Shown one piece after another: positions 795 to 37,022 of a stretch of 37,901 nt of DNA. The stretch covers positions 1-37,901 of IMG/VR virus record IMGVR_UViG_3300013233_000027; one strand, 5' to 3'. Made by a program: the position numbers and the translations under genes. Below the pieces are notes generated by a model. That model saw only the letters and a program-made list of their open reading frames with translations, was not told the DNA's origin and did not search any database. Origin of the DNA: a virus. Numbering within the stretch: the stretch's first letter is position 1; every line of letters starts with the position of its first letter.

Positions 795-2999
795 CTATCC
801 TTTGAAACTTGCGCATTTACTATGAAACTTTATTGGAATATCACCAATAGCACCATTTCTGTTTTTACCAACAATCAATAAAGCGTCCTCGATTAAGTCC
901 TTTCCCTTATTAGCTCTATATGGAAATAATATTAAATCAGCATCATTTTCAACTGCACTACTATCACTAAGGTTTGCAATCGTTGGTTTACATCCGTCTG
1001 CTTCCCTGTTCAGTTGTGATAACAGGATAACAGCGCAATTAAGCTCCTTAGAAGCCCCTTTAAGCGCTCTTGTCATGTCTGCAATCTCTAAGTGTCGTTT
1101 CTTTGTGCTATCGCCTTTAATAAGCCCTAGATAGTCGATAAGTAGAACATCCAATCCTTGATGTTTCTTATGCTTTCTAGCTTGTGCAATAATCTTAGGC
1201 ACTGTCATATTACTATCATCGTTCACGAACAATTTAAGCTTTGTCATATCTTGCGTTGCAACTGCTGCATTACTCCAAACTTCCGAAGGAAAGCTTTCCG
1301 CTGTGCGCAATGACATTAAGTTCAGGTTTGATAATGTGCTTGTTACACGATACCCAATAGAAAGCTTATCCATTTCAATAGAGTTAAAGCATACATTATT
1401 CTCTTTTGCCATGTGTATTGCCATATCCATAGCAAGGCTAGTATTATGTGTGACTGTATAATCACCCACTACATATAAGCATGTGCCATGACTAACAGAT
1501 ATACATTGCGCTTCTTCATCGCCAATATATTCAATACTCTCAATATTAAGATTTCGAACGCGCTTTGTTCCAGTTAGTCGTTCAAGTTTATGAGGAATTG
1601 TAACAAACTGTTGCTTGTTCTCATGGCTAATATATAAGCAGTAATTCCTTTTCCCTAGCTTCTTTTCTCCTTTGTATGTGTATTCTGGGATTCTGCTACT
1701 CATCGAACAAAAGCAACCCAATCCTCTAGCTAATTTTTGCACATCAATAGCAAGCTGCTTACTAGATGTTGAGTATGTCATGTTGTTTGATTTTTCAACA
1801 GTCCCGTCTGTATCCATTAAGCCATTCATTAAAGCTAAACGAGTTTCCTTAGTGGCAGAAAAATATTGTTTTGGAATGAATTTTGATGTTGATTTACAAC
1901 CAATCAAACCAAACTCTTTAAGCTTATTTAGTAGCCAGTTATTTTTACCCTTAGTGGTTGTTAATGAATAATCAATAATACTTTTGCCATGAAGCTTTAG
2001 CTCTACATCACCTAACATTGGTTTAATTTTATTCAGGATGAAGTCATGGCTTGTTGTAAGCTTAACTGTATTGGTTAGGCATCCATCCCCAATCAATACA
2101 CCAAGTAAATATGGATGAATATCAATATCTTTATCAACACCAAACTCGCCAATAATTCTAGGTATAAATAGCTTTTTATTGTAGCGATAGCATTTATTCT
2201 TCTCAATCAATTCTCTTGTTGTTAATGTCCGAAACTCGCCCCAGTGGTGACTCTTAACGCTCCATTGGTGGTCAAGTCCTGCGTCAACTGTTCGCCCATC
2301 ACTTAACTTAATTCTATAAATAGGCTTCTCACCTTGAGGAAATACACCTGTCACAACAGATTCTTCCCCATCAACACTTGCTACTTTATCACCAATCATA
2401 ATATCTCCCATGCGTATAGTACTACCACATGAAAGTAACACTTTTGTATCTAAAGTCAACTCTTTACCCTGTGACGCTCGTGCAGCAATGATGGTTAAAT
2501 TCTGCCGTTCAAGCCCTCCAATCATTGTATCCAATGCTTTGATACCAGTCTTGATAAATCTACTCGTACCGTTACCTGCAACTCGCTCACGCATATCATT
2601 ATAAACATCCAATGATACATCACCAATCTCTGAATAATCTGATGATGTTACAGGCTCATCAATATGTATTGAAGCAACTGCTTCACCCAATGTTGAGCCT
2701 GTCTTAATCATTGCCAATGCTTTGTGCATTTCCACTTCAAACACACGAACATTATAAGCATCTTTAATCTCTTTCTGAATTAAGCCATGTACTGACTGCT
2801 GACATTCATCAAGAGCTTCTTTGATTTCTGTTTCTGCTGATAGCTTTGTTGCAAGTTCAACAATATCAAAAGAGCCTTCCTGCATAGCTGCAAATATATC
2901 TCTATACTTAGCATTCTGAAAATGTGCAGGGGTAAGTTCTGATAATCCAATCAGAGTTTCATTCATCAATAGATTTCCAATATAACCTGCTTCATTCAT
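795..2999 (-). CDS. Replicative DnaB-family helicase with in-frame intein
   Basis: The 734-aa precursor unwinds DNA at the phage fork after splicing to about 394 aa. Residues 1-100 resemble the DnaB N-terminal domain. The RecA-like ATPase core starts near residue 150. The Walker A loop (ARASQGK^TSLAMD) is split after Lys179 by a 340-residue intein (180-519). After it come Walker B (DVLLIDYLGLI) and the SQLNRE...NLSDSSAVENDAD segment typical of DnaB. The start is ATG 2999, with GGAG 7 nt upstream and a 1-nt overlap with the loader gene. The spliced length is slightly short for DnaB (about 450), which is common in phages. Without splicing the P-loop cannot form, so splicing should be essential for replication. 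Confidence 0.93.
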   Translation of the reverse strand: MNEAGYIGNLLMNETLIGLSELTPAHFQNAKYRDIFAAMQEGSFDIVELATKLSAETEIKEALDECQQSVHGLIQKEIKDAYNVRVFEVEMHKALAMIKTGSTLGEAVASIHIDEPVTSSDYSEIGDVSLDVYNDMRERVAGNGTSRFIKTGIKALDTMIGGLERQNLTIIAARASQGKELTLDTKVLLSCGSTIRMGDIMIGDKVASVDGEESVVTGVFPQGEKPIYRIKLSDGRTVDAGLDHQWSVKSHHWGEFRTLTTRELIEKNKCYRYNKKLFIPRIIGEFGVDKDIDIHPYLLGVLIGDGCLTNTVKLTTSHDFILNKIKPMLGDVELKLHGKSIIDYSLTTTKGKNNWLLNKLKEFGLIGCKSTSKFIPKQYFSATKETRLALMNGLMDTDGTVEKSNNMTYSTSSKQLAIDVQKLARGLGCFCSMSSRIPEYTYKGEKKLGKRNYCLYISHENKQQFVTIPHKLERLTGTKRVRNLNIESIEYIGDEEAQCISVSHGTCLYVVGDYTVTHNTSLAMDMAIHMAKENNVCFNSIEMDKLSIGYRVTSTLSNLNLMSLRTAESFPSEVWSNAAVATQDMTKLKLFVNDDSNMTVPKIIAQARKHKKHQGLDVLLIDYLGLIKGDSTKKRHLEIADMTRALKGASKELNCAVILLSQLNREADGCKPTIANLSDSSAVENDADLILFPYRANKGKDLIEDALLIVGKNRNGAIGDIPIKFHSKCASFKG
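1443..2462 (-). other. Class 3-type intein with LAGLIDADG endonuclease
   Basis: Residues 180-519 of the helicase precursor. Block A begins ELTLDTKVLL, with Glu at position 1 in place of Cys/Ser. Block B has DHQW (His244, Trp246). Block F has AQCISV (Cys499). The C-end is VTHN followed by Thr+1 (Thr517, His518, Asn519). Trp at B:12, Cys at F:4 and Thr at G:5 are the WCT signature of class 3 inteins, which use the block F Cys as first nucleophile and do not need Cys1. Dodecapeptide endonuclease motifs LLGVLIGDG (298-306) and LMNGLMDTDG (390-399) indicate an intact homing endonuclease. The insertion site is the P-loop, between Lys and Thr. Confidence 0.92.
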
Positions 3000-3403
3000 T
3001 ACCAGTCTCCAGTTTTGAGTTCGTTAATAACATCCATAACAACATCCAGTTCATCTTCCCATCTCTTTTGATTAAGCCATGTGCTAGGCATAGGAATAAA
3101 TTGACCACCATTCTTTTGCCATTGTTCTGTCTCCTTAAACATTTCAACTGATTTCATAATCATTTCAGTTAGTTCTTGGTTAGGATTCATTGCAAGCCAT
3201 TTCTTCTTACAGGCTGACTTACCCTGCTTCTTAGGATAAGCCACCCAAAAGCTCTCAAAGTCCTTTACAATGGATTCTAAGCCCCTGTATGGCGATTGCA
3301 TTTGCTCAATCACCTCATCAATATGCGCTTGTTTAATAACAATGATTGAATTGTTGTCTTTCAAGCATAAATCACCATTATCATAATGATATACGATACA
3401 CAT
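2999..3403 (-). CDS. Putative helicase loader / replication initiation protein
   Basis: This 134-aa protein carries the module FESFWVAYPKKQGK...GGQFIPMPSTWLNQKRW, which is well known at the C-terminus of phage replication-initiation and primosomal proteins of DnaT/gp18 type. It lies immediately upstream of the helicase with a 1-nt overlap, the usual place for a loader. I chose ATG 3403, which overlaps the preceding TGA and has AGGA 9 nt upstream; an in-frame TTG lies 6 nt earlier. No ATPase P-loop is present, so it would act as an adaptor, not as an AAA+ DnaC-like loader. The N-terminal 45 residues are not recognised. Confidence 0.7.
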   Translation of the reverse strand: MCIVYHYDNGDLCLKDNNSIIVIKQAHIDEVIEQMQSPYRGLESIVKDFESFWVAYPKKQGKSACKKKWLAMNPNQELTEMIMKSVEMFKETEQWQKNGGQFIPMPSTWLNQKRWEDELDVVMDVINELKTGDW

Positions 3404-3786
3404 CACCAACCATCCTGCAATTTAATCCAATTATTAAAATGCTCTTGTACCTGCTTGTGACTGATGCCATAAACTTCCACAGCATCAACTGTATCTTCTA
3501 TCTCATATGTCACCATTGCTTCATGGTTTCCAAGTTCATAATAAACGATATGTTTAGTGCCATACTTATCAAGCACCTTCTTTGCGTGCATATCTATAGC
3601 TTCAGACATACCTTCCGACAATGCTTTAGCATTATCAAGTGGTACAACTAAACCGCTTGAAATCTGCACATACTTAACACCTTCCTTCTTTTGTTCTTCA
3701 AGCTTTTCGTTACTGAAGCAATAAAATGCTTCATGCTTATCCATAAGCTTTGAAATGGTTTCATCTAGCTCTGTTCTGTCAATCAT
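3403..3786 (-). CDS. Conserved phage hypothetical protein (YELGNHE type)
   Basis: A 127-aa acidic, mostly helical protein without membrane segments. The central KHIVYYELGNHEAMVTYEI block resembles a family of uncharacterised phage early proteins (DUF7659-like; I am not certain of the assignment). It starts at ATG 3786 behind AGGGAG, overlaps the upstream gene by 8 nt and the loader start by 1 nt. It therefore sits in the replication operon and is probably translated by coupling. Function unknown. Confidence 0.75.
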   Translation of the reverse strand: MIDRTELDETISKLMDKHEAFYCFSNEKLEEQKKEGVKYVQISSGLVVPLDNAKALSEGMSEAIDMHAKKVLDKYGTKHIVYYELGNHEAMVTYEIEDTVDAVEVYGISHKQVQEHFNNWIKLQDGW

Positions 3787-3958
3787 GTTTAACTCCCTTA
3801 ATCAGCTCAATTTTCTCATTAAGCATTTCCAATAAACTATTATCATGCGCTATTAAATCTGCTGCTCCATCCAATGTATGATGTACATAAGCTTCGTATT
3901 GTTGCCATTCAATACCTCGTTCTTGTTGCTCTTGCCATGCTTCAGCACTCAATCCCAT
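3779..3958 (-). CDS. Small hypothetical early protein, 59 aa
   Basis: Start chosen at ATG 3958 because GGAGG lies 7 nt upstream. The open frame extends 15 codons further to 4003 but that stretch has no ribosome site. The protein (MGLSAEAWQEQQERG...) is acidic, rich in Gln and Glu and probably helical. It overlaps the neighbour on each side by 8-17 nt. No family recognised. Confidence 0.7.
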   Translation of the reverse strand: MGLSAEAWQEQQERGIEWQQYEAYVHHTLDGAADLIAHDNSLLEMLNEKIELIKGVKHD

Positions 3959-4172
3959 CTTTGACCTCCATTGAATAAGACGCAAAACTAACCTTATCAC
4001 CAAATTTATTTGCAGAACTCACACGCTCTGTTTTAAGCTTATATCCATAAACTTTTAGCCTATGAATAACAGCACTAAGCCTATACACACCGCATTCATT
4101 TAATGCTTGCATAGGCTGAATAGCCCCATGTGTTCTAATGTACGCTAAAATCCGTTTCTCTTGGTTTCCCAT
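3942..4172 (-). CDS. Winged-helix HTH protein, HTH_39-like
   Basis: This 76-aa protein begins GNQEKRILAYIRTHG and continues with ALNECGVYRLSAVIHRLKVYGY and KLKTER. That is the layout of the small phage winged-helix family HTH_39 (PF14090): a helix, a turn with the Gly-Val/Ile step, a recognition helix, then a beta wing. Members sit in early operons and are thought to bind DNA; no target is known. ATG 4172 has GGGAG 8 nt upstream. It overlaps its upstream neighbour by 38 nt. Confidence 0.75.
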   Translation of the reverse strand: MGNQEKRILAYIRTHGAIQPMQALNECGVYRLSAVIHRLKVYGYKLKTERVSSANKFGDKVSFASYSMEVKDGIEC

Positions 4173-4449
4173 TTATTCGCTCCCTTATATATTCCATAAA
4201 ATTGCTCTTTGGCATGTTAAACATATATGCCGCTTCTTCTGGTGATGCTCCATTGTTAAGAACATCAATCATAAACAGTGTTTTAGACAGCCCTTCCGCA
4301 TACCCCCCTAAGCCCTCTTGCCCTTCTAACAAGGTTATGGTCCATTCAGACAATAAAAACCCCTTAGGCTTTGATATATAGGCATAGAAGGCACATGCTT
4401 TTAGCTGTGCATCACTGTTACATGACAACACAGCTTCTTTGTATGTCAT
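4135..4449 (-). CDS. Hypothetical early protein, 104 aa
   Basis: Starts at ATG 4449, sharing ATGA with the stop of the preceding micro-gene, with only a weak ribosome site, so translational coupling is likely. The C-terminal half (ASPEEAAYMFNMPKSNFMEY) reads like a helix-turn-helix, with a 'gain-A..fnm..s.v' rhythm. The N-terminal half is not recognised. A DNA-binding role is plausible but unproven. Confidence 0.7.
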   Translation of the reverse strand: MTYKEAVLSCNSDAQLKACAFYAYISKPKGFLLSEWTITLLEGQEGLGGYAEGLSKTLFMIDVLNNGASPEEAAYMFNMPKSNFMEYIRERINGKPRETDFSVH

Positions 4450-4619
4450 AACCCATTCATTGACTTCAATGTTTCTGCTAGTTCCTTCACAATTTCATTA
4501 AAGTCAAGCTTTTGACGCTTAACAACTAGACATAAATTATGCACTGCATATTGTAAATCTTTCATATTAACCTCGGCTTGGTATTTATCAGACAATGCTC
4601 GCCCTTCATATTCATCCAT
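4446..4619 (-). CDS. Micro-gene, 57 aa
   Basis: MDEYEGRALS...LKSMNGL, 57 aa, acidic N-terminus followed by two predicted helices. GGAG lies 8 nt before ATG 4619. It overlaps the upstream micro-gene by 8 nt and the downstream start by 4 nt (ATGA). Too short for most automatic length cut-offs. Function unknown. Confidence 0.65.
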   Translation of the reverse strand: MDEYEGRALSDKYQAEVNMKDLQYAVHNLCLVVKRQKLDFNEIVKELAETLKSMNGL

Positions 4620-4770
4620 TCATCATTCTCCTTTGTAGTGATTTCATCAACATTCGACCATATTCAATATCTTCATGGTCAAACTTCTTTAACGCATGTT
4701 GCGTAACCTTAATCGCAAGGCTCTTTGTTCGTGCATATCGAATTGCACCCATATACCATAATATATTCAT
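4612..4770 (-). CDS. Micro-gene, 52 aa, basic
   Basis: MNILWYMGAIRYARTKS... encodes a 52-aa basic, helical protein with pI well above neutral. ATG 4770 shares ATGA with the stop of the upstream membrane micro-gene. GGGAG lies 8-9 nt upstream. No family recognised. A nucleic-acid or host-factor binding peptide is possible from its charge only. Confidence 0.6.
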   Translation of the reverse strand: MNILWYMGAIRYARTKSLAIKVTQHALKKFDHEDIEYGRMLMKSLQRRMMNG

Positions 4771-4922
4771 CTTCGATTCTCCCTAGAAATAAGCCCTTTA
4801 CAGACACCCCCCATAACATATAGGACTACAATCAATCCAATAGCCATAATGACTACGCTTAGGAATTGGGTAAAAATAAAGGCTAATAATATTAAGGCTG
4901 TTAATATGCCTATCGTTTTCAT
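4767..4922 (-). CDS. Two-TM small membrane protein, 51 aa
   Basis: The 51-aa product is almost all hydrophobic: about residues 4-20 (IGILTALILLAFIF) and 23-40 (VVIMAIGLIVVLYVMGG), ending in a basic tail (SRENRR). It should sit in the inner membrane. AGGAG lies 7 nt before ATG 4922, and ATGA overlaps link it to both neighbours. Early phage membrane peptides often act in takeover or superinfection exclusion, but nothing here shows which. Confidence 0.65.
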   Translation of the reverse strand: MKTIGILTALILLAFIFTQFLSVVIMAIGLIVVLYVMGGVCKGLISRENRR

Positions 4923-5035
4923 TGTTTACTCCTATGTTTTCTGGATATAAGTTTTTTTATAGGTTTCTCGGTTTTTTCTATAATTCTGATTATTGTGTAA
5001 GCTGTTGATATTAAACGACTTATCTTAAATATCAC
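4919..5035 (-). CDS. Micro-gene, 38 aa, GTG start
   Basis: A 38-aa basic peptide (MIFKISRLIS...RKHRSKQ) starting at GTG 5035, with GGAGG 8 nt upstream. A second GTG at 5041 is too close to that site. Its TGA overlaps the next ATG, continuing the ATGA chain, which is the main argument that it is real. It begins about 50 nt after the terminator of the 166-aa gene. Confidence 0.45.
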   Translation of the reverse strand: MIFKISRLISTAYTIIRIIEKTEKPIKKLISRKHRSKQ

Positions 5036-5085
5036 TATCACTCCCTCCTGCTCGGTTTACTCGGTTTCACTATTTACCCCGAAGG

Positions 5086-5114
5086 GTTAAAATAAAGCCC
5101 CCAATTAAGGGGGC
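5086..5114 (-). terminator. Intrinsic terminator after the 166-aa gene
   Basis: On the - strand GCCCCC pairs with GGGGGC (5109-5114 with 5097-5102) around a 6-nt loop, followed by TTTATTTTAA (5087-5096). It lies 10 nt after the stop at 5124 and separates this gene from the micro-gene chain. Confidence 0.85.
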
Positions 5115-5123
5115 AATATCTGT

Positions 5124-5624
5124 TTAGCCTTCGCCGCGTAACAGGATGGCATCAGCTAACGCTTCAAGGTCAGCAGCTTCACTCTTGTCTGGGCGACCTT
5201 CAACGCTATTGCTTTGGTCGTGGATGTTTGACGCTTGTTTAATAACATCCTCTTTTGAGATGCCATTGCTACGCAAATCAGCAATCAAGCCGAGTGCATC
5301 GCTATCAACATCATGCAAGACCAAGAAAGGCATATTCGAGCCGCTTTGATAGATGAAAACTTTTAGTTCGTCGTGCATCAAGCTACACAATAACTTGCCT
5401 TCAGCGTGCATCTTAGGCGTGTGCATACGCTCAGCTTGACCAGTAGCCTTAGTTTTCATTTTAGCCGTGTTACCGTCCAACTGAAGCTTTACATGATACA
5501 CAAGCTTAGACTGTGATGATTGAACCATTGTGTGAAAATAATTGTGTTTCTTGTTGTAAGCCATTGCTGCTGCATTGGTTAATGTGTTTGTGCTGCTTTC
5601 CAAGTTTTCTAGTTGTGATTTCAT
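5124..5624 (-). CDS. Hypothetical 166-aa early protein, own transcription unit
   Basis: Start chosen at ATG 5624, where AAAAGGAG sits 8 nt upstream; the open frame reaches 5684 without a ribosome site. The 166-aa soluble protein has a Ser/Thr/Asn-rich N-terminus, a central HVKLQLDGNTAKMKTKATGQ segment that may be a beta hairpin, and an acidic C-terminal helix (EAADLEALADAILLRGEG). No catalytic motif or known family. A TATAAT box upstream and a strong terminator downstream suggest it is made separately, perhaps at high level. Confidence 0.75.
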   Translation of the reverse strand: MKSQLENLESSTNTLTNAAAMAYNKKHNYFHTMVQSSQSKLVYHVKLQLDGNTAKMKTKATGQAERMHTPKMHAEGKLLCSLMHDELKVFIYQSGSNMPFLVLHDVDSDALGLIADLRSNGISKEDVIKQASNIHDQSNSVEGRPDKSEAADLEALADAILLRGEG

Positions 5625-11730: not shown

Positions 11731-12062
11731 AGCGAATGAAAAGAGAAATTAAGTCAGTGTTTGATGATAATGAATATCTAAATGACCTGCAAAAGCGACA
11801 AGGTTATTTGCGGAATATTAAAGAATGTATTGACAGTCCGTTCGGTGTCATTTTAATACAGGCTCTTGAGCAGATTGAGCGTGACGGCTATGCAACGCTT
11901 TATAAGACATGGCTTCCGCACAAGAGCAGGCAGGCAAAGGCCAATATCAAGGCAGCTTCTCTATTGAAGAACACCATCATGGGTTATTCAGCAGAGAAAG
12001 AAGCTTTTGATTTGGCAGTGCGTCAATATCAAGAAATGGAATTAGGAGAATATAATGAGTGA
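11727..12062 (+). CDS. Small protein between portal and scaffold
   Basis: 111 aa, basic N-terminus (MKRMKREIKSVF), mostly helical, no membrane segment. It overlaps the portal stop with ATGA and is itself overlapped by the next micro-gene. Proteins of this size next to portals may be head completion or assembly factors, but I recognise no family. Confidence 0.7.
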   Translation: MKRMKREIKSVFDDNEYLNDLQKRQGYLRNIKECIDSPFGVILIQALEQIERDGYATLYKTWLPHKSRQAKANIKAASLLKNTIMGYSAEKEAFDLAVRQYQEMELGEYNE

Positions 12063-12213
12063 TTTTAGCGTGCCAAAAGTATTTGGTCATAATGAAGAAT
12101 TAGAAGAACTAGCCAAGCCAATTAGAGAGCTTTGTGAAGCCGTCAGCGCATTGCAAAACACAATCAATGCTATGGCTAAGCCTGTGAGTAAAAAGGCTTC
12201 TAAAGCTAAATAA
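12055..12213 (+). CDS. Micro-gene, 52 aa, head region
   Basis: MSDFSVPKVFGHNEEL...KKASKAK, 52 aa, beginning at ATG 12055 with AGGAG 7 nt upstream and overlapping the previous stop by 8 nt. It has one amphipathic helix (ELEELAKPIRELCEAVSALQ) and a Lys-rich tail. The helix could oligomerise or bind the portal. Unknown function. Confidence 0.6.
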   Translation: MSDFSVPKVFGHNEELEELAKPIRELCEAVSALQNTINAMAKPVSKKASKAK

Positions 12214-12305
12214 CAGTTTCGAGCGTCAGTCTCGTTAAACACTGCGATATGATAGCGCGTTAGGCTTTCTGCGAGACAGAACCTCGGAAAAACAGGAGAT
12301 AGGAA
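12214..12305 (+). promoter_or_regulatory. Structured leader before scaffold gene
   Basis: 92 nt holding GTCTCG/CGAGAC (12229-12234, 12272-12277) enclosing an imperfect inverted repeat GCGATAT/ATAGCGC that contains TATGAT (12248-12253), then a strong AGGAG. It may be a promoter or an RNA control element raising scaffold and capsid expression. The evidence is structural only. Confidence 0.35.
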
Positions 12306-13106
12306 ATGGAAGAAACTGCACAACCATCACCATTTGAAGGTGAAGAAGAAGTTATCCAAGACTTCGATGAAGAATATGAGCCAGAGGAAGGAGAGCTACC
12401 TGCCGATGATGACTATGATGAATACGAAGATGAGGATGATGACACATTAGACGAAGAATCTGATGAAGAAGATTATGACGATGAGGATGATGAGTTAGAG
12501 GATGAGCAGGATGATAAGCCAGACCTAGTTCCGCATGCTGCATTACATAAAGAACGGCTACGCAGGAAAGAATTGCAACAAGTTATTTCGCAATCCCAAA
12601 TGCAAGCTAAGTCTATGGAAGATGATATTACAGAATATCGGAAATCATTGATGTCTATTCGCAATCAAGTTAAAGAGCTTGGGTTAGAAGATGCGATTGA
12701 TATTGATGAGCCAGACCAAGTTAGCGATGAAGTTCGTGAAATGCGTCAGCAGAAAGAGACAGCACAACTGCAAGAACAGTTAGGCTCGACTGTTGATGAA
12801 ATTCGTAATGAAGCTGCAAACTACCTAACGGAATATCCATCTATTGATGGTGATAGCCCAGAAGTAGCAGAAATGGTTGTCGCAATGGCATTAGCAAACC
12901 ACACCTTTAATGGTATGGAGCTTGAGGATGCTGTTGAACACAGCATGAAACTTGTCAGCACAATGACAACTGCACAGGTGAAGAATGCTGTGCGTAGAAA
13001 GTCACCAACTATTCGTAAGAAAGTGGTGCGTGCAAAACAAACTAAGCCCAAAGCCAAGTCGGGTAGTGTATTCGACAATATGGCAGGGCAACTACTAGGA
13101 GATTGA
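12306..13106 (+). CDS. Scaffolding protein
   Basis: 266 aa directly before the capsid gene, with the usual scaffold layout. There is a very acidic, disordered N-terminus (residues 1-75, long Asp/Glu runs), a helical coiled-coil middle (about 80-160) and a basic C-terminus (KSPTIRKKVVRAKQTKPKAK) that would grip the capsid protein. No catalytic motif. Strong ribosome site AGGAG. Called by architecture and position. Confidence 0.8.
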   Translation: MEETAQPSPFEGEEEVIQDFDEEYEPEEGELPADDDYDEYEDEDDDTLDEESDEEDYDDEDDELEDEQDDKPDLVPHAALHKERLRRKELQQVISQSQMQAKSMEDDITEYRKSLMSIRNQVKELGLEDAIDIDEPDQVSDEVREMRQQKETAQLQEQLGSTVDEIRNEAANYLTEYPSIDGDSPEVAEMVVAMALANHTFNGMELEDAVEHSMKLVSTMTTAQVKNAVRRKSPTIRKKVVRAKQTKPKAKSGSVFDNMAGQLLGD

Positions 13107-13107
13107 C

Positions 13108-14214
13108 ATGGCTGTACTACAAAGCTACCAATCAACAGCAGGTAATCGCGAAGATTTAATTCCTGTAATCACAATGATTTCACCAGATGATGCACCATTC
13201 TTATCATCTATCGCAACAAAGAAATCAACAGGAATGAAGCATGAATGGCTAACAGATGCACTTTCTGCACCTACTGCAAATGCACAGGTCGAAGGTTCTG
13301 TTGCTGCATTTGGCACATTAACTCCGCGTGTTCGTGTTGATAACATCGTTCAGAATATCCGTAAAACTGGCTCTATTTCTGATAACCAAGAAGCTGTATT
13401 GAAAGCAGGCATTAAGTCTGAATATTCATATCAGTTAGAAAAAGCTACAAAAGAGATTGCTCTTGATACTGAGCGCGCAATGATTCAAGGCGCATACAAC
13501 ACTGGTTCAAGCGTAACTGCTCAAACTATGGGTGGTTTGTTCTCATTCTTGCAGTCTAACCAAGTTGCAGGCTCAGCCGCCGTTGCTGCTACTGGTGCTG
13601 TTGTTGCTGCGACTGCAACAAGCGTAACTGTTGGCGCAGGTCATGGTGCTGTTGTTGGTTCTTATGTGATGATTACGCAAGGCGCAGGTGGCGGCACTAC
13701 TACTGGTCAAGGTCAGTATCGTATCGTTACTGCTGTTGCCGCTAATGTTTTAACTGTTGCTGCTTGGGATGTTATTCCAACTGTTGCGTCTAACTATGCT
13801 GTGTTCGCTGCTCCTGCAGCATTGACAGAAACTAAGCTTAATGATGCCTTTGAAACATGCTATTTAGCAGGTGGCCATCCAGATTGCATTATGGCTCCGA
13901 CAAAACAGAAGCGTGCAATTTCAAACTTTGCATCGTCTGTTCGCCGTCTAACTGCAAGCGAAAGCAAAATCACAAACAGCATTGATGTCTATGAGTCAGA
14001 CTTTGGCGTGCATCAAGTTAAGACGAACCGTTGGATGCCTGCAGGTTCTTTGGCTGTTCTTGAAAAAGGGCAGTTTGCTGCTGCATATCTTCGCCCTGTT
14101 AAAGCAGAGGAATTGGCTCGTCGTGGTTCAAGCCGTGACTTTATGATTGAGTCTGCTGTAACACTTGAAGCTCGTGCTGAAAATAGCTCAGCTTTGATTT
14201 TAGGCTTGTTGTAA
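13108..14214 (+). CDS. Major capsid protein, SU10/DUF5309 family
   Basis: The 368-aa shell subunit. The N-terminus (NREDLIPVITMISPDDAPFLSSI) and the C-terminal DVYESDFGVHQVKTNRWMP...ARRGSSRDF stretch match the SU10-like HK97-fold capsid family (DUF5309). Residues about 152-235 are a Gly/Ala/Val/Thr-rich beta insert that looks like an extra surface or lattice domain. AGGAG lies 7 nt before the ATG. The scaffold is just upstream and a strong terminator just downstream, as expected for the most abundant late protein. Confidence 0.9.
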   Translation: MAVLQSYQSTAGNREDLIPVITMISPDDAPFLSSIATKKSTGMKHEWLTDALSAPTANAQVEGSVAAFGTLTPRVRVDNIVQNIRKTGSISDNQEAVLKAGIKSEYSYQLEKATKEIALDTERAMIQGAYNTGSSVTAQTMGGLFSFLQSNQVAGSAAVAATGAVVAATATSVTVGAGHGAVVGSYVMITQGAGGGTTTGQGQYRIVTAVAANVLTVAAWDVIPTVASNYAVFAAPAALTETKLNDAFETCYLAGGHPDCIMAPTKQKRAISNFASSVRRLTASESKITNSIDVYESDFGVHQVKTNRWMPAGSLAVLEKGQFAAAYLRPVKAEELARRGSSRDFMIESAVTLEARAENSSALILGLL

Positions 14215-14227
14215 AATATAGGAATGT

Positions 14228-14256
14228 GGGAGGGGCAGAGATGCCCTTCCCTTTTT
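14228..14256 (+). terminator. Intrinsic terminator after the capsid gene
   Basis: GGGAGGGGCA pairs with TGCCCTTCCC (10 bp, one G-U) around a GAGA tetraloop, followed by TTTTT. It lies 14 nt after the capsid stop. It should partly separate high-level head expression from the tail genes, like the terminator after T7 gene 10. Confidence 0.9.
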
Positions 14257-14269
14257 CATAGGAGTTTCA

Positions 14270-14551
14270 ATGACAAATGTCGTACGCAAAAGCATCATTG
14301 AAGGTGCTAATGGTGAAATTATTTTTAATTATGTTGAGGATGTAACTTCTCTTGAAAAAACAAACAGCATAATTAAGAATGAATGTGATGGTTTCTCACA
14401 GGATAGGGCAAGGCGCATGTGCGTCAGCGTGCCACCAAGAATGTATTATTTTTGGGCAAATCAGCTTGGTGAGGAATGTTGGACAGATAAGAGCTTCTTG
14501 AGGTCATTTATGAAAGAACATCCTCAATACGCTACAGCAAGTAACATTTAG
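14270..14551 (+). CDS. Hypothetical 93-aa protein after capsid
   Basis: Soluble, about neutral. The C-terminal half (PPRMYYFWANQLGEECWTDKSFLRSFMKEHP) resembles small conserved proteins found between capsid and connector genes in other podovirus-like phages, but I cannot name a family. AGGAG lies 6 nt before ATG 14270. A head-completion role is a positional guess. Confidence 0.7.
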   Translation: MTNVVRKSIIEGANGEIIFNYVEDVTSLEKTNSIIKNECDGFSQDRARRMCVSVPPRMYYFWANQLGEECWTDKSFLRSFMKEHPQYATASNI

Positions 14552-14560
14552 GAGAACTGG

Positions 14561-15217
14561 ATGCCGTCAGATACAGCGTTAAACTTAGTCAATAGAGTAT
14601 TACGAACAACTGGCGACTACCCACCAATCACAACACTGATAAACAGCCCTAGCAATATTGCTGCGAAGATTGTTGATTTTATGAACCTTGTCGTTGAAGA
14701 TATTGACAGGAAGTTTGAGTTTAATGAATTGCAGTCAAGCTTCCAAGCAACAGCTAATGGAACATCATCAGTATTCATATCAGCTAACCTTTTATCAAAG
14801 ACAAGCACAGGTGTTGATTGCCTTATTGATGGCATTGGCAGACTGACAGAGGTAAGCCCTTCTAGGCTTGCTGAAATGCGTGCTACGCCGTCACAGTTTG
14901 TTGCACAGCCGCAATATTTTGCTCGTAAGAGTGGATTGAATGATGAAATAGGTGTTGATATATATGCCACCCCTGCAAATGGTTCAATCATTACAGTGAC
15001 ATCATTCGAGAAGCTTAATCAATTTACATTGAATGATGCTTCCACAATCAAAGTTAATGTTGATGATATGATTGTACTTGGCTCGTTAGCTCACATGGAC
15101 GCTTATGATAATATTGAGCGTGGTTATATGCAGCTATATCAAAAGACTAAGGATGATATGTGGCAAAAAATGATGGGGAATGTTCAGTATCGTACAGAAG
15201 TTGAGGATTATCGCTGA
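14561..15217 (+). CDS. Head-tail connector / tail accessory factor, P22 gp4-like
   Basis: 218 aa. ALNLVNRVLRTTGDYPPI and MNLVVEDIDRKFEFNELQ are characteristic of gp4-type adaptors that bind under the portal ring and close the head. Length matches such adaptors. The next gene is the gp10-like nozzle, the same order as in P22. AGGAG lies 8 nt before ATG 14561. No clear muramidase motif is visible, unlike P22 gp4. Confidence 0.75.
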   Translation: MPSDTALNLVNRVLRTTGDYPPITTLINSPSNIAAKIVDFMNLVVEDIDRKFEFNELQSSFQATANGTSSVFISANLLSKTSTGVDCLIDGIGRLTEVSPSRLAEMRATPSQFVAQPQYFARKSGLNDEIGVDIYATPANGSIITVTSFEKLNQFTLNDASTIKVNVDDMIVLGSLAHMDAYDNIERGYMQLYQKTKDDMWQKMMGNVQYRTEVEDYR

Positions 15218-16704
15218 TGGCATTCACCCCAATAAGGAAGAATGTTCCAGTAAAGGGTATGAATACGGTTAGTCCACGCCGTAACTTCACTGATGAACAT
15301 TCACCAAACTTAACAAATGCTTGGTATGATGACGGCGTTACATTAAGGCGTAGATTATGTACAAGCATTCTTAATCAATCCTTGATACCAAGAGCCTTAA
15401 ACATATTCGAGTATAAGAAGGTCACATCAAATCTATTTGTTCAAGATAATACAGGCACAATCAATTTAGTTGATAATGTGAATAATGTATTCGTTCCCCA
15501 AACCCTTCCATTCACAGGTAAAGTTCGTGCAACTGTATTGAAGAACTTTATGATTGTTGGTGATGGCATAAATCCTGCCCATAAATGGGATGGTGCAACA
15601 TGGACTCCAATTCCAACGCCACCTTTAAATGAGCCTGCTATTGGAAATATATTCCATGTTCATTATGGGCGTGTATATGCTGCAGGTAATGCAAACAATC
15701 CATTGACTATTTATTATTCTGATGCTTTGAGTAGCACTGGTGTTGATTATTGGTTGCCGCCTGTAAAACCTCCAGTGCCTACTATTGGTGGGTTCATTGA
15801 TATTTCGTCTGATGTTGCTACAGGCGATGCAATCACAGGCTTAACAACGCATAGGGGTTTCCTTGTAGTATTCTGTACCAACCATGTTTTGTTTTATAAT
15901 GTACAAGACCCTATCGGTGGAACTGTTAGTTTGTTCAAGTCTATTATTGGTGAGGGCTGTGTCAGCCATGATTCAATTCAGCCTGTTGGTGAGGATACAA
16001 TATTCTTATCCCCAAATGGATTTAAGAAATTATCCGTTAGTTTAATTCAAGGTGATAGCCAAGTTAGCGATGTTAGTTCACCAATCAATAATCTTGTCAA
16101 ACAGCAAGTGGCGTCATTAACCACAATGGACTACATCAGCAGCTCATACAATGCACGCTATGGGCTTTATATTTGTTCTCTAGGCAATGGGGTCAGTTGG
16201 GCATTGCAGCCCTCCTATGAGGGTTGGGCGCAATGGACTGGACTTGATGGAATATTGTTCACTGATAGTCAGCAAAGGGTTCTTCATTGTAATTCGTATT
16301 TACAGCAATTATCAAACACAGTGTTCCAAGATGAAGTTGCTCCAAATGTATTTACGCCTGTTCCCATGACTTGGGAAGTTGCCCCTTTTCGTGGCGCATT
16401 AGAACATAAGGTTAGATGGAACAGGATTGCCATTGTTTATGAGTGTGATACAAATGACATAATCAATGTCACTACATACCCAGACTTAAATTTCAGTGAA
16501 GTGTTTAGAAGCACGCATGATATTTCAACCGCACCAATATCTACTACTGGTAGTAATGATGTCGGATTGAAGGAGGGTAAGTCAGAGTTGCCTTTATCGT
16601 GGCGTGGTGAGATATTGAGCGTAGTTATAATGAACACAAGCAATACAGATTTTAGAATTAAGCTAGTCGAATGTTTTTATGTCGATGGCGGATATAGAGA
16701 GTAA
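15217..16704 (+). CDS. Packaged-DNA stabilisation / tail nozzle protein, P22 gp10-like
   Basis: 495 aa, beta-rich. The N-terminus (NTVSPRRNFTDEHSPNLTNAWYDDGVTLRRR), the internal GDGINPAHKWDGATW and the GRVYAAGNANNPLTIYYSD stretch are typical of gp10-like beta-propeller nozzle proteins that extend the portal-adaptor channel and hold DNA in. Start overlaps the gp4-like stop by 1 nt. Together with the absence of tube, sheath and tape-measure genes it argues for a short-tailed particle. Confidence 0.8.
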   Translation: MAFTPIRKNVPVKGMNTVSPRRNFTDEHSPNLTNAWYDDGVTLRRRLCTSILNQSLIPRALNIFEYKKVTSNLFVQDNTGTINLVDNVNNVFVPQTLPFTGKVRATVLKNFMIVGDGINPAHKWDGATWTPIPTPPLNEPAIGNIFHVHYGRVYAAGNANNPLTIYYSDALSSTGVDYWLPPVKPPVPTIGGFIDISSDVATGDAITGLTTHRGFLVVFCTNHVLFYNVQDPIGGTVSLFKSIIGEGCVSHDSIQPVGEDTIFLSPNGFKKLSVSLIQGDSQVSDVSSPINNLVKQQVASLTTMDYISSSYNARYGLYICSLGNGVSWALQPSYEGWAQWTGLDGILFTDSQQRVLHCNSYLQQLSNTVFQDEVAPNVFTPVPMTWEVAPFRGALEHKVRWNRIAIVYECDTNDIINVTTYPDLNFSEVFRSTHDISTAPISTTGSNDVGLKEGKSELPLSWRGEILSVVIMNTSNTDFRIKLVECFYVDGGYRE

Positions 16705-16707
16705 ATT

Positions 16708-17538
16708 ATGGGAATACTTAACAGAATTGGTCATGCGCTAAGACCATCAACGATAGCAAAGGTTGCAAAGAACCCAAATAGGCTTGCTAAGCAGCTAACT
16801 TCAAAAAAGATAGGTCAAACCAATAGGTATTTACATCATGGTTTAGGTCGTTTTATCGGAACTGGTGTATCACAAGGAATGAATGCTGTATCCCGTGGAG
16901 CGCATTCCCTCAATATTATGAATGATAAGGATTATAAAACTGCAAAAGATTTTGGCAATGCAACTGGTAATGTACTTCAAAATGCAGTATCCCTACCTTA
17001 TGATATAAATCATAAAGGCGGATTGAATGCTTTTACGCATAACCCTTCAACATTCCTTGTTGATAAATCATTGCATGATACAAGTGCTTACCATAATATA
17101 GTTAGACCAATAGCCAAGACTGCATCAAATATTGGTGTTGGATATTTAACTGGTGGGCTTGGTGGCAACGCGATTGGAGGAGCAGCTGCAGCAGGGCTTG
17201 GTGGCGCACTTAGCGGCAGTCTTGGTTCAGACCCTTATACCCCAGTGAATAATGTTGTTGTTCCTGCGGTTACAGGTTATGCGGCAGGACAAGCAGCAGG
17301 TAGTGATGGGGGTACAACATCATCAACTATTGATAATGTTCTTAAATATGGTGGTGCTGCATTGGCGGCATATCCTCGCCCTAATGGTGGCAATCAGCCT
17401 AATCAATCACCAATAGCTCAGCTATTCAATTCTGGAACAGGGTTAAATCCTGCAGGCGGTGATATGAACCAACTACTACAACGGAATGTTATTGACCCAA
17501 GTCAAGGTGATGTTCCACAAATTCAAGGTTTAGGATAA
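16708..17538 (+). CDS. Putative DNA ejection protein, glycine-zipper type
   Basis: 276 aa with a basic N-terminus and two glycine-zipper membrane segments around residues 140-175 (IGVGYLTGGLGGNAIGGAAAAGLGG) and 190-225, then a Gln/Asn/Pro-rich tail. The position after gp10-like corresponds to the P22 gp7-gp20-gp16 ejection set. It would be packaged in the head and form part of a channel across the cell envelope. Called by architecture and order, not sequence identity. Confidence 0.6.
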   Translation: MGILNRIGHALRPSTIAKVAKNPNRLAKQLTSKKIGQTNRYLHHGLGRFIGTGVSQGMNAVSRGAHSLNIMNDKDYKTAKDFGNATGNVLQNAVSLPYDINHKGGLNAFTHNPSTFLVDKSLHDTSAYHNIVRPIAKTASNIGVGYLTGGLGGNAIGGAAAAGLGGALSGSLGSDPYTPVNNVVVPAVTGYAAGQAAGSDGGTTSSTIDNVLKYGGAALAAYPRPNGGNQPNQSPIAQLFNSGTGLNPAGGDMNQLLQRNVIDPSQGDVPQIQGLG

Positions 17539-17550
17539 TAGGAGTTTTAT

Positions 17551-18030
17551 ATGTCAATGACAGGCGCAGATTACATGCAGTTATTAAATGCTTTTCGGCA
17601 GAATGACACACAGAATAATGATAATAATCAACAGCAACAGAACGCACAGTTTAGTTGGCAGAAAGCATTGCCTGCTTTGCTTGGTGGTGGACTTGGGTAT
17701 GCAATCCATCCTCAAAGAGCATATCAGCCATTGAATGTAGCAACCCTTAATGCAGCTACACTCCCTCAAATGCAAGAGGACGCGAATATGCGCATTGCTC
17801 AAATCAATAGCCAACAATCAGCACAAGGCGGCATGAATAGCATGGATGCTTATAGAGTGGCTTCCACACGCGCTAAGATGTCACAACAGATTGGGCAGCA
17901 ACGCGCCCTTAACCAAGCTCAAGCAATAGCCTCACAGAACCAAGCTTCCCAAGTTCGCCAAGAAAACCAAATGGGTCGTATTGGTTCTGCATTGGCTATT
18001 GGTGGTGCATTAAAGAATATGTTTAACTAA
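17551..18030 (+). CDS. Putative internal virion protein, Gln/Asn-rich
   Basis: 159 aa. Residues 18-32 are an Asn/Gln run and residues 40-52 a short hydrophobic segment (ALPALLGGGLGYAI). The rest is a long Gln/Ala-rich helix (about 75-145), ending in IGSALAIGGALKNMF. This helix-plus-glycine-segment design recurs in podovirus ejection proteins. AGGAG lies 7 nt upstream of ATG 17551. Confidence 0.55.
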   Translation: MSMTGADYMQLLNAFRQNDTQNNDNNQQQQNAQFSWQKALPALLGGGLGYAIHPQRAYQPLNVATLNAATLPQMQEDANMRIAQINSQQSAQGGMNSMDAYRVASTRAKMSQQIGQQRALNQAQAIASQNQASQVRQENQMGRIGSALAIGGALKNMFN

Positions 18031-18040
18031 GGAGACTGTT

Positions 18041-19495
18041 ATGCAACAGCAAGCCCAACAACAGCCACAGGCTCAACCACAACAGGTTCAACAAGTTCAG
18101 CCAGACCTAACATTGAAAGCAGTTAATCCTTTCACTGGTCAGCTTGATGAAGTTAATAGCCAAATGGTGCAACAGCAATTCACAGCACCAACAGAGACAG
18201 CTCCCACAGCAGGTGTTGCTCAAATGCTTGCGCCAGATACAGGCAGCCCATTCGATGCTTTGAATAAAATGGTTGTTGGCGATAAAATGTATGAAGCACA
18301 AAAGCAGCGGACAAAACTTCAAGAGCAGCAAATGCAAATGAAGGTTGATGCTAATCGTGCTGCAATCCTTAAAGACCAACAGAAGAACCATGCTATTAAA
18401 GGTCAATTCTTTACGCGCATGGGTAAAGATTCTGAGTTTCGCAAAAGAGCGTTAGCCGAAGGCTTCACAGACGATGCTACATACGAACAAGGCCAAGCTC
18501 TTGAATTCATGCGCAGATACGATGCGGAAAAAGATTCAAATAGAGATACAATTTTCAATCATAATATGGGTGAGAAAGCAAAGCTTAAAGAATACATAAG
18601 CCTAACCCAAACTGAACTTGGCAGACTGATTGGTGCAATGGTTGATGATAGCCCAGTTGCTCGGGTAGGTAATATGTCTGTCTATCGTAAAGCTATTGAA
18701 GGCGGAATGCCTATTCGTGCTAATGATGGCAAATTCTACATCCCAAATGCTAATGGCTCATTACATGAAGTTGATAGCACTGGTTTGATTGATGACCCTG
18801 CTTCATACATTGACCTAGCTAATCTGAAGAACAATGCAAAGATTGAACTTTCAGACCCTACAAGTGATATATTCTTAGGGCAGAGTCGCAACACTGCAAC
18901 ATCTAAAAATGCAATATTCAATAAGACAGCGTACGGAAAAAGACTTATCGGCTCTATTGATTCAATGTTAGCCAAGAATGGCTTAGACAAAGATGCGATG
19001 CGCCCAAAGGTGTTGGCATACATTAAGAATATGAATGATAAAACATTCAATATTGGCAATGTTGTTCAGCGTGTCATGGATAAAAACTCACAAGGCTTGA
19101 ACACTGGCGGCGGTGATATATTGGATGTTCCTAAGTATATCAAGAAAGAGTTTAAGATTGATAATAAAGTATTTGATGCAACATATTCTAAAACAGAAAA
19201 GATGACTGCTCTTAAAAATTATTACATGAGCTTTGAACTAAATGCAGATGGCGAGCATTACAGCAATCAAGATGCCGTAGTTAAGGCTTCCAATGCTCTT
19301 AACAATCCTAAAGAACTACAACGCATTTCAGAGATTGATACACGCGGACTTACAAGTAAGGCTAGTGACTTTGTATCTAACACTGCAAGCAATGTGTCGC
19401 ATGGCATTAAGAATGCCGCTTCTGACGCATTCAATACTATGAATAATGCACAGAATGCTATTTATAATATTGCAGGGAAACTCTACAACCAATGA
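18041..19495 (+). CDS. Putative internal virion / ejection protein, 484 aa
   Basis: It begins with a Gln/Pro-rich disordered stretch (residues 1-25), then a helical body (KMYEAQKQRTKLQEQQMQM; 90-200). The middle, RVGNMSVYRKAIEGGMPIR, resembles a small beta domain. There is no enzyme motif. The C-terminus (ASNVSHGIKNAASDAFNTM) is an amphipathic helix. AAGGAG lies 7 nt before the ATG; the stop overlaps the giant downstream gene. Position and composition suggest it is ejected with the DNA. Confidence 0.55.
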   Translation: MQQQAQQQPQAQPQQVQQVQPDLTLKAVNPFTGQLDEVNSQMVQQQFTAPTETAPTAGVAQMLAPDTGSPFDALNKMVVGDKMYEAQKQRTKLQEQQMQMKVDANRAAILKDQQKNHAIKGQFFTRMGKDSEFRKRALAEGFTDDATYEQGQALEFMRRYDAEKDSNRDTIFNHNMGEKAKLKEYISLTQTELGRLIGAMVDDSPVARVGNMSVYRKAIEGGMPIRANDGKFYIPNANGSLHEVDSTGLIDDPASYIDLANLKNNAKIELSDPTSDIFLGQSRNTATSKNAIFNKTAYGKRLIGSIDSMLAKNGLDKDAMRPKVLAYIKNMNDKTFNIGNVVQRVMDKNSQGLNTGGGDILDVPKYIKKEFKIDNKVFDATYSKTEKMTALKNYYMSFELNADGEHYSNQDAVVKASNALNNPKELQRISEIDTRGLTSKASDFVSNTASNVSHGIKNAASDAFNTMNNAQNAIYNIAGKLYNQ

Positions 19496-22380
19496 GTGAA
19501 TTCCTTGACGGACTGACAAAGCTCCCTCGCAACCTTGTGGGTGGGGCTGCCGTTAGTCTTGGTGCAGACCAAGAGAAAGTTCAAGAGACGCTAGGGCTTA
19601 ATGAGAAAGCTCCAGAGTCATTTTTTGATGATATTGTTGCCCATCCAACAAAATATATAGGGGAAGCAATCCCTTATATGTTTCTTCCGTCAAAGCTTGT
19701 TCGCAAGACAATCAGTAAACTAACTGGTGTTGGTCATAAACTTCCCACTAAGGGCGTTAAAAGCCGCAGAGAGCGTCTTAAAGACAATCTTGATATGGCA
19801 GCAACCTTCGGTGCTTATGGTGCAGTAGATGAGCTTGCAAGCGCGCAGGTTCAAGGGCGTGAAAGTCATGCAGTCGAACATGCAGGGGTCGATGCAGGAC
19901 TAACTCTTGCACTGGCAGCATTAACGCATGGTGCTATTCGTGGTTCTTCCATGCTAAAGAGCAAGGCTCAAAAGAGTAAATATGTTAAGGATATATTTAG
20001 AGAAGCAGGACTTGATTCAAAGTTAGCCACAGATATTATAAACATGACTGAAGCTGATAGGGCTGTTGCTCTGAATAACCTTAATAAGCAAATTGATTCA
20101 AGCAGAAACTCAATTCATGGTGCTATCTTGGGTGCGCAACCACATGCTAAGTTTGGTGAACCCACCAAGACTGGATTGTTTGATAGCCTATTCGGTAGCT
20201 ATTCCCCGAACAGCAACATTGAAAAGATTGTTGTTGGCAACAAAAGACCACCAATGAAAGACATTGAAGGTGATTACTTCGATGCTCACACTAAAGATGC
20301 TATACAGAATATTCGTAATGCAGGTGATGTTATGGATAGTTCATTGAACACAACCCTTAGACATTCACACAATCTTGGCTTGAGTATTCGCGAAGCTATA
20401 CCAGACCCAAAGGTCAGAGCTAAGATTACAAGAGCGTTAGATGTGAACGGTGAACGAACATATAATATGCTAACCCCTTATGAAAAAGGTGTTTCTGATA
20501 ATATTCGTATATATTTCAATGACTTATCTGGCTTACTGAATAGAGCTAAGATAATCAATGGGCATCGTGAGAACTATATACCCCACCTTCTAAAAAATGA
20601 GGATGGAGAACCAACATCATTTCTTGATGAAATTGGTAAGCGTTCACACATATCCAAGAATACTGCACGCTCAAAAGAGCGTGTTGATGAGAGACCTTTG
20701 CATGAGAAAAAGAATGCAGTTACATTGGATATATCAGAGCTTGTTGATTTATATGGTCAACAGGTTAGTCGTGCAGCAATCATGCGCAATGTATTTGATA
20801 AGGTTGATTTCTCACTAATCAAGAATACAGGCGGAAAGGTTACACATGCAACGCATCCAACACTGGTTGCTGAATACCTTAAAGTGTTAAGAGCAAGCCG
20901 TGATGAAACAATCAAGCATAAGACCAAAGGCTTAACGCCAAACCAAGCTGAAAAGGTTAGGGCCTCCTTACTAAAAGAGCATGGCTCATTCGATGAAGAA
21001 TTGAAGAAGCTAAGTCTTGATGTTCATCCAGATTATCTTCCATCATTGGATATGCTATTCAAAGCAACAAACATAAATGATATGACCAAAGCAGCAGTTG
21101 CAGTCAATGCAGTTAGCAAGCGTATGCTTATATTTGGCTCATTGTTCCATTTCAATGCCTTGAGTGAGAGTAGCTTATTTGCAGGTGCAGGTGGTATGGG
21201 TGCAATGCTTAAAGGTGCAGCAGTTGGTTTTGTTGGTACAGGTTTTAATCCTCTTGGTGCTGCCGTTGGTGCAGGACTTGGTGCAGGCATAAGTTCATTG
21301 GTTAAGACTAAGGGTATATCAAATGCAATGCGTCATGGTGAATATGGTGATAGCTATGATTTTGCTTTGCGATACATTGATATTAAACCTCCACGCGATG
21401 TTGATAATGATGCGTTCTATGGCGCTATTGGTGATGTTCAGAATGTTATTGATAAGCATGTGCCATCTGGGCTTGCTAAAGGCGCTCTTAAAGACGGCAC
21501 GGCAGCCATAGGCGGCATTAACAAAGCTATTGATGTTCTTATGTGGGATAGGCTTATGAGCGGCTCTAAACTCGTTGTGTTCGAGAAGAAGCTTGAAGAA
21601 CTAACAATCAAGAATTTAGACAATGAAGTTAGCAAACAGCTAAGCCAACATGAGCTTGCTACTATGGCAGGGCAGTTTGTTAATGATGCCTTTGGTGGTC
21701 AGAACTGGCGTAAGCTAGCTGAGGGTGTTGATAACGCTTTCGGGCGTAAGATTGCATCAGCAATGGCTACCCCGAATGGTAAAGTTTGGACAAACCTAAT
21801 TATGTTTGCACCAGATTGGACTATTTCAAATGTTAGAATCCTTGCTAAGGCGTTCCCCGGAATAAACAAGAACAAACTTAGCCGTCAAATGTACCAACGC
21901 TATGCTGTACGAGCAGCCATATATTATATGATTATGGGAACAGCAGTTCAGCAAATGCTTACAGGAACTAATATATGGGATAATGACGACCCAACACGAT
22001 TGGACTTGGGCGATGGTAGACAAATGTCATTTAGTAAGCAGTTGAGTGAGCCTTTTAAGTGGGTTATAGACCCAATACATGAAGCTAAGGTTAAGCAATC
22101 ATCTATTCTGAAAGGTATTGAAGAACAGGTGACAAACCAACAATACACTGGTGCTAATGGTCATGCTCCAGAGATACGCCGTGACAATGATACAGGCATT
22201 GATATGGTAGGAAATTCTTTAATTGTTGCAGGACAACATTTTGCCCCTATATTTGTGCAAGATTTATCACGCAATGGTTTGGATGGTGTGTATGGTTTCT
22301 TTGGTCATCCTGTATATGGCAAGATAAAGCACAAGCCACAAGAGAATGAAGGCGTTGTGATGGAGATTGATAATGGTTAA
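19492..22380 (+). CDS. Large internal virion / DNA ejection protein, 962 aa
   Basis: The largest protein encoded here. The N-terminal third is helical. Residues about 545-606 form a glycine-rich hydrophobic hairpin (AGGMGAMLKGAAVGFVG...AAVGAGLGAGISSLV), and residues 803-822 a second hydrophobic helix (YAVRAAIYYMIMGTAVQQML). The C-terminal part (FAPDWTISNVRILAKAF, then GDGRQMSFSKQLSEPFKWV) is a recurring feature of very large phage internal proteins. It probably threads into the inner membrane to build the ejection channel. I see no lysozyme or transglycosylase catalytic motif. Start overlaps the previous stop (ATGA). Confidence 0.65.
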   Translation: MSEFLDGLTKLPRNLVGGAAVSLGADQEKVQETLGLNEKAPESFFDDIVAHPTKYIGEAIPYMFLPSKLVRKTISKLTGVGHKLPTKGVKSRRERLKDNLDMAATFGAYGAVDELASAQVQGRESHAVEHAGVDAGLTLALAALTHGAIRGSSMLKSKAQKSKYVKDIFREAGLDSKLATDIINMTEADRAVALNNLNKQIDSSRNSIHGAILGAQPHAKFGEPTKTGLFDSLFGSYSPNSNIEKIVVGNKRPPMKDIEGDYFDAHTKDAIQNIRNAGDVMDSSLNTTLRHSHNLGLSIREAIPDPKVRAKITRALDVNGERTYNMLTPYEKGVSDNIRIYFNDLSGLLNRAKIINGHRENYIPHLLKNEDGEPTSFLDEIGKRSHISKNTARSKERVDERPLHEKKNAVTLDISELVDLYGQQVSRAAIMRNVFDKVDFSLIKNTGGKVTHATHPTLVAEYLKVLRASRDETIKHKTKGLTPNQAEKVRASLLKEHGSFDEELKKLSLDVHPDYLPSLDMLFKATNINDMTKAAVAVNAVSKRMLIFGSLFHFNALSESSLFAGAGGMGAMLKGAAVGFVGTGFNPLGAAVGAGLGAGISSLVKTKGISNAMRHGEYGDSYDFALRYIDIKPPRDVDNDAFYGAIGDVQNVIDKHVPSGLAKGALKDGTAAIGGINKAIDVLMWDRLMSGSKLVVFEKKLEELTIKNLDNEVSKQLSQHELATMAGQFVNDAFGGQNWRKLAEGVDNAFGRKIASAMATPNGKVWTNLIMFAPDWTISNVRILAKAFPGINKNKLSRQMYQRYAVRAAIYYMIMGTAVQQMLTGTNIWDNDDPTRLDLGDGRQMSFSKQLSEPFKWVIDPIHEAKVKQSSILKGIEEQVTNQQYTGANGHAPEIRRDNDTGIDMVGNSLIVAGQHFAPIFVQDLSRNGLDGVYGFFGHPVYGKIKHKPQENEGVVMEIDNG

Positions 22381-36871: not shown

Positions 36872-37022
36872 TATTTCCTCTCCCAATATAGAACTTACAA
36901 ACCTTTTCCTGTTCATAAGGCTCAGTTTCAAATACATGCAAATAGTCATGTATTCGTTTGTCATTCTTCTCTAGTTTTCGTTTACATTTTTTGTTGCAGA
37001 TTGTGCTTTGGCACATTTCCAT
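36864..37022 (-). CDS. Cys-rich micro-protein upstream of nuclease
   Basis: 52 aa, MEMCQSTICNKKCKRKLEKN... with five Cys (CxxxxCxxxC plus one distal). AGGGAGGG lies before ATG 37022, and the stop overlaps the nuclease start (ATGAATGA). Probably binds zinc and is coupled to the nuclease. No family recognised. Confidence 0.6.
   Translation of the reverse strand: MEMCQSTICNKKCKRKLEKNDKRIHDYLHVFETEPYEQEKVCKFYIGRGNNE

Follow-up and report, generated by a model that had tools for sequence, protein, structure and literature searches.

In published accounts of class 3 inteins, residue 1 is treated merely as "not a nucleophile", and the solved class 3 structures that we covered have Ala at this position (e.g., PMC7891396, PMC6195587). 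The window, i.e., the entire 37.9 kb stretch of an IMG/VR virus record that was analyzed here, contains a DnaB-type helicase gene interrupted by an in-frame intein of which the first residue is Glu. This raises the questions of which class the intein belongs to, whether Glu1 is a peculiarity of this phage, and what such a residue might do next to the bond that has to be broken. The relevant features are the following, with intein residues counted from Glu1 unless stated otherwise:

2999-3409, minus strand: replication-initiation (O-like) ORF (phrog_9474, 1.4e-25), directly upstream of the helicase gene
795-2999, minus strand: CDS of the 734-aa precursor of a DnaB-type helicase, interrupted in frame by the intein (PF03796, 1.6e-58, matching as two segments)
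2463-2999, minus strand: N-extein, residues 1-179, ending in ARASQGK (Walker A through Lys), border set by the empty-site orthologues L177 and L178
1443-2462, minus strand: intein, 340 aa, precursor residues 180-519, Glu1 to Asn340
2460-2462, minus strand: Glu1 codon GAG, intein position 1, aligned on residue 1 of 6bs8
2277-2279, minus strand: Gly62, motif B position 7 (B:7), covarying with residue 1
2268-2270, minus strand: His65, B:10, present in 247/247 aligned inteins
2262-2264, minus strand: Trp67, B:12, the W of WCT, precursor Trp246 (247/247)
2082-2108, minus strand: LAGLIDADG motif 1 (block C), LLGVLIGDG, with Asp126
1803-1832, minus strand: LAGLIDADG motif 2 (block E), LMNGLMDTDG, with Asp219 (PF14528, 1e-9)
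1503-1505, minus strand: Cys320, F:4, the C of WCT, predicted first nucleophile, precursor Cys499 (247/247)
1449-1451, minus strand: Thr338, G:5, the T of WCT, precursor Thr517 (247/247)
1443-1448, minus strand: His339-Asn340, C-terminal splice dipeptide; His339 is G:6 (247/247)
795-1442, minus strand: C-extein, starting with Thr+1 (TSLAMD; precursor Thr520) and running through the stop codon

The Pfam DnaB_C match is broken into two parts that flank the insert, and intein and LAGLIDADG models match inside it. The insertion point reads SQGK/TSLAMD, between the Lys and the Thr of Walker A (DnaB-b, the P-loop allele). Both borders of the intein are fixed because two intein-free orthologues, L177 and L178, provide the empty site: they read GSGK/TSFAMG, and their C-exteins are 54 and 53% identical to that of the window. 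The original prediction was right about Glu as the first residue, Thr as the +1 residue, the location within Walker A and the presence of both LAGLIDADG motifs. Elsewhere in the window, positions 36014-36964 (minus strand) encode an exonuclease with a Cas4 domain (phrog_1990, 2e-38).

The definition of class 3 inteins that we applied (PMC3196547, PMC7891396, PMC5050341) rests on the WCT residues, and the window intein contains all three: Trp at B:12, Cys at F:4 and Thr at G:5. It also has His65 at B:10, the C-terminal Asn340 and a nucleophile at +1 (Thr), and the definition demands no Cys, Ser or Thr at position 1, which is Glu here. We aligned the window intein with 246 other distinct class 3-type inteins (n = 247) from viral contigs, GTDB genomes and phage records. 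The columns that hold His B:10, Trp B:12, Cys F:4, Thr G:5 and His G:6 show no variation in this alignment (247/247), so that the WCT signature and the assignment of precursor Cys499 to F:4, both proposed before, hold. The other two classes do not fit. A class 1 intein would have a Cys1 or Ser1 nucleophile instead of Glu1, and a class 2 (KlbA) intein would combine Ala1, no Cys at F:4, Cys+1 and a KlbA host, instead of Glu1, Cys F:4, Thr+1 and a DnaB host.

We modeled the intein, flanked by 10 extein residues at either end, with AlphaFold2, and the confidence was high (pLDDT 92.7, pTM 0.90). The model overlays the class 3 intein 6bs8 with a VIA Z score of 18.8 and 1.6 A over 123 of 125 residues; model positions 11 to 350 superimpose on chain positions 1 to 139, which places Glu1 on Ala1 and Asn340 on Asn139. 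The best overlay with a small Hint structure was that with 6bs8, with class 1 inteins within 1-2 Z units, and our tree took in class 3-type inteins only. PI-SceI, the VMA intein (1jva, 1vde), has the same Hint plus LAGLIDADG architecture, and the overlay with it spans the whole Hint and endonuclease parts (Z 28.5). However, PI-SceI is a class 1 intein starting with Cys1, and both its splicing class and its host protein differ from those of the window intein. The endonuclease fold is also seen in the overlay with I-Tsp061I, and the acidic residues of both LAGLIDADG motifs, Asp126 and Asp219, are retained. Judged by its sequence, the insert is a class 3 intein, and the predicted fold supports this assignment.

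Known class 3 inteins share this framework, but not the residue at position 1. DnaBi1 of M. smegmatis (6bs8; PMC6195587) and MchDnaB1 (6rix/6riy; PMC7664689) also occupy Walker A site b of DnaB and have WCT, the Hint fold and an HN end, but they start with Ala and lack an endonuclease; moreover, DnaBi1 is a mini-intein with Asp at B:7 and a Cys48/Cys118 redox pair, where the window intein has Gly at B:7 and Ile at position 48. The split class 3 intein AceL NrdHF (6zgq; PMC7891396) likewise has a non-nucleophilic residue 1, a Cys at C2:4 (equivalent to F:4) and the Hint fold (Z 15.6). Unlike the window intein, it combines Ala1 with Ser at B:7, has Met replacing Trp, is split and has no endonuclease. 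The inteins of Escherichia phage TL-2011a (DnaB, L012), Serratia phage BUCT660 and Shewanella phage FishSpeaker resemble that of the window in WCT, LAGLIDADG and GK/T, but have Ala1 with Asn or Ala at B:7 and are 37-39% identical to it. The TL-2011a helicase is also the best whole-protein match to the window precursor (32.6%); this DnaB-type helicase with a complete class 3 intein (2986-5379) is annotated just as a hypothetical protein. No comparable relative of the window intein above approximately 42% identity was found among isolated phages, plasmids and GTDB genomes, within the reach of the search seeds, and a nucleotide search with window positions 12000-24000 against phage records gave no match.

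Class 3 inteins had been described as rare in the original prediction, which is at odds with the 1701 members present in nr by 2020, 82.5% of which have LAGLIDADG motifs (PMC7891396). Among the GTDB genomes (L097-L176, e.g., L139-L142 and L154), a class 3 intein with Ala1 occupies the P-loop of many DnaB genes from betaproteobacteria such as Polynucleobacter and Burkholderia, and in some of these genes another intein seems to follow downstream. Enterobacterial plasmids (H94-H98) contain near-identical matches to class 3-like inteins, one record of which annotates the match inside traD.

Glu1 is not peculiar to the window phage. The ten closest inteins (those of the window, L019-L025, L187 and L188), which are 47-59% identical to the window intein, form a clade with an SH-aLRT support of 99; every member is located in a DnaB-type P-loop and all ten start with Glu. 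In the alignment of 247, residue 1 is Ala in 194, Glu in 22, Met in 7, Ser in 7, Leu in 6, Asp in 5 and Gly in 3, with Gln, Cys and Phe occurring once each; the loci are the best 80 per query, so these are frequencies in the sample and not population estimates. About nine changes in Glu1 are counted on the best tree. Glu1 is therefore a recurrent natural state rather than a one-off or a curiosity: a clade of ten has it without exception, and it also occurs outside that clade (22/247 in all), so the view that it is unique is rejected.

These data bear on two further explanations for Glu1. A single base separates GCG (Ala) from GAG (Glu), and Ala1 might have been misread as Glu1 during sequencing or assembly. 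We reject this, at a negligible probability: nine independent relatives in other contigs begin with Glu, which excludes chance and sequencing error, and Gly at B:7 never accompanies Ala1. The insert might also be a decaying element that no longer splices, with Glu1 as a mark of lost function. There is a precedent in the class 3 pseudogene Arth_1007 (PMC3196547), but that one lacks His B:10 and Cys F:4, whereas the window intein has an open frame with every catalytic residue retained. Glu1 is moreover found in ten relatives in which the Hint and endonuclease parts are conserved (60, 53 and 56% mean identity), and the insert sits in Walker A of the DnaB that the phage itself encodes, which argues against decay. 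We thus regard decay as very improbable; the sequence is consistent with an intein that is active in splicing. As a separate observation, the window intein has Cys328, eight residues past the catalytic Cys320, at a position that is mostly His or Arg among the relatives and is Cys in only 3 of the 247 inteins, L019 being another.

The more informative feature, overlooked at first reading, is the Gly at B:7 (Gly62) that accompanies Glu1. In the literature, B:7 of class 3 inteins has no conserved residue (PMC7891396). When we sorted the 247 inteins by residue 1, Gly occupied B:7 in 40 of the 42 with a bulky residue 1 (Glu, Asp, Met, Leu, Gln or Phe), but in none of the 205 with a small one (Ala, Ser, Gly or Cys). 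This is not a matter of alignment ambiguity, because residue 1 is fixed by the GK junction just ahead of it, and B:7 by the invariant His three residues further on. The size class of residue 1 amounts to 0.757 bits, of which B:7 carries 0.711, compared with 0.363 for the next column, a neighbor of B:7, and a median of 0.074. After average-product correction, the residue 1/B:7 pair ranked 4th of 55,611 (z 11.5); the next partner of residue 1 had a z of 3.7. We left out the residue 1 and B:7 columns when building a tree of 172 sequences, and each of the two traits changes at least 17 times on it. Nine independent pairs lie on supported branches; in about eight of them the two traits shift together in one direction, and in none do they go opposite ways (sign test, p 0.008). 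Thus, the coupling arose repeatedly. It is apparently new, being undescribed in the literature that we covered, although older surveys or the supplement of PMC7891396 may list Glu1 members or the pairing.

The two exceptions are L020 (2760-3776), which belongs to the Glu1 clade and has Arg at B:7, and L304, with Leu1 and Cys at B:7. Glu1 and Arg in L020 could pair by charge, and the swapped arrangement, Arg1 with Asp at B:7, is present in Dulem virus 38 (L319, PP511596.1). The latter combination is one of those encountered in a more distant set of mostly terminase class 3 inteins, in which a Thr6 anchor served to locate residue 1, with less certainty; Leu1/Cys, Leu1/His, Gln1/His, Pro1/Asp and Met1/Cys also occur there. 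Gly at B:7 together with Ala1, Ser1, Gly1 or Cys1 was absent from the distant inteins examined, so that only one direction of the rule extends to them, suggesting a different N-terminal arrangement. The inteins that break the rule include those of Klebsiella jumbo phages (L320, L321) and of Gordonia phage Verity (L332).

Taking these results together, we consider it highly probable that the insert is a mobile class 3-type intein in the P-loop of a phage DnaB, and that its Glu1 belongs to a recurrent arrangement that pairs a bulky residue 1 with Gly at B:7. By analogy with established class 3 chemistry, Cys320 is predicted to attack the Lys(-1)-Glu1 bond, after which the N-extein would be passed to Thr+1; Asn340 would then cyclize and the Walker A sequence GK/T would be restored. 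Glu1 would not act as a nucleophile in this scheme. The likeliest reading of the covariation is that the side chain of residue 1 packs in place of the absent B:7 side chain: both positions would share one pocket beside the N-scissile bond, the bulky side chain of Glu1 would occupy the space left by Gly62, and the filled pocket would hold the bond for attack by Cys F:4.

Alternatively, Glu1 might be catalytic, its carboxylate replacing the B:7 side chain in straining or polarizing the N-scissile bond. In the published structures, which count in favor of packing as well, B:7 residues do contact this region: Asp62 of DnaBi1 is near Ala1 (PMC6195587), and Ser65 of AceL NrdHF can form hydrogen bonds to the scissile amide as well as to the carbonyl of Ala1 (PMC7891396). 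Further, Glu accounts for 22 of the 42 bulky residues, Asp and Gln occur as well, and the charge pairs Glu1/Arg and Arg1/Asp would fit such a role. However, a carboxylate does not explain Met1, Leu1 and Phe1 with Gly at B:7 (7, 5 and 1 cases, respectively), and because these occur in the same arrangement, we favor packing. Since no other bulky residue 1 is as frequent as Glu, which is also invariant in the window clade, we still give a carboxylate role some weight, but we judge it rather unlikely. A related proposal is that there are two interchangeable modes of activating the N-terminal bond, one in which B:7 supplies the side chain and residue 1 is small, and one in which residue 1 is bulky and B:7 is Gly; lineages would have switched repeatedly between them, with the Glu carboxylate substituting for the B:7 group in the Glu1 clade. 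We hold this version with similarly low confidence.

Besides the packing of residue 1, mobility forms part of the preferred reading. The inteins of the Glu1 clade are 47-59% identical to that of the window, whereas the C-exteins are only 29-45% identical; the exteins closest to those of the window, L177 and L178, are without intein. Such incongruence fits an element that is passed from one helicase gene to another. The window intein is therefore probably mobile, and its LAGLIDADG domain may copy the intein gene into intein-free dnaB alleles, for which the empty-site relatives provide putative homing targets.

It had also been suggested that splicing serves as an on-switch for phage replication. 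An insertion in the P-loop presumably leaves the precursor without ATPase activity, and DnaBi1, a class 3 intein at the P-loop, is redox-sensitive (PMC6195587). Nevertheless, normal ATP binding by the helicase needs removal of the insert in the case of every P-loop intein. The disulfide partner Cys48 of DnaBi1 is Ile48 in the window intein and Ile or Val in most relatives, and a redox switch via a Cys48-Cys118 disulfide of the DnaBi1 type is therefore rejected. In addition, class 3 inteins that bear LAGLIDADG motifs have been suggested to splice constitutively (PMC7891396). The on-switch idea thus finds no support here, and we consider regulated splicing of this kind, by redox or other means, improbable.

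The rule that links residue 1 to B:7 accounts for much of the variability at both positions of class 3 inteins. It suggests which residues 1 would be tolerated in a given class 3 intein, which is relevant when residue 1 or B:7 is to be engineered. Natural test cases are available in the Glu1 clade, which contains both the Glu1/Gly B:7 and the Glu1/Arg B:7 combination, and elsewhere in the form of Arg1/Asp B:7.
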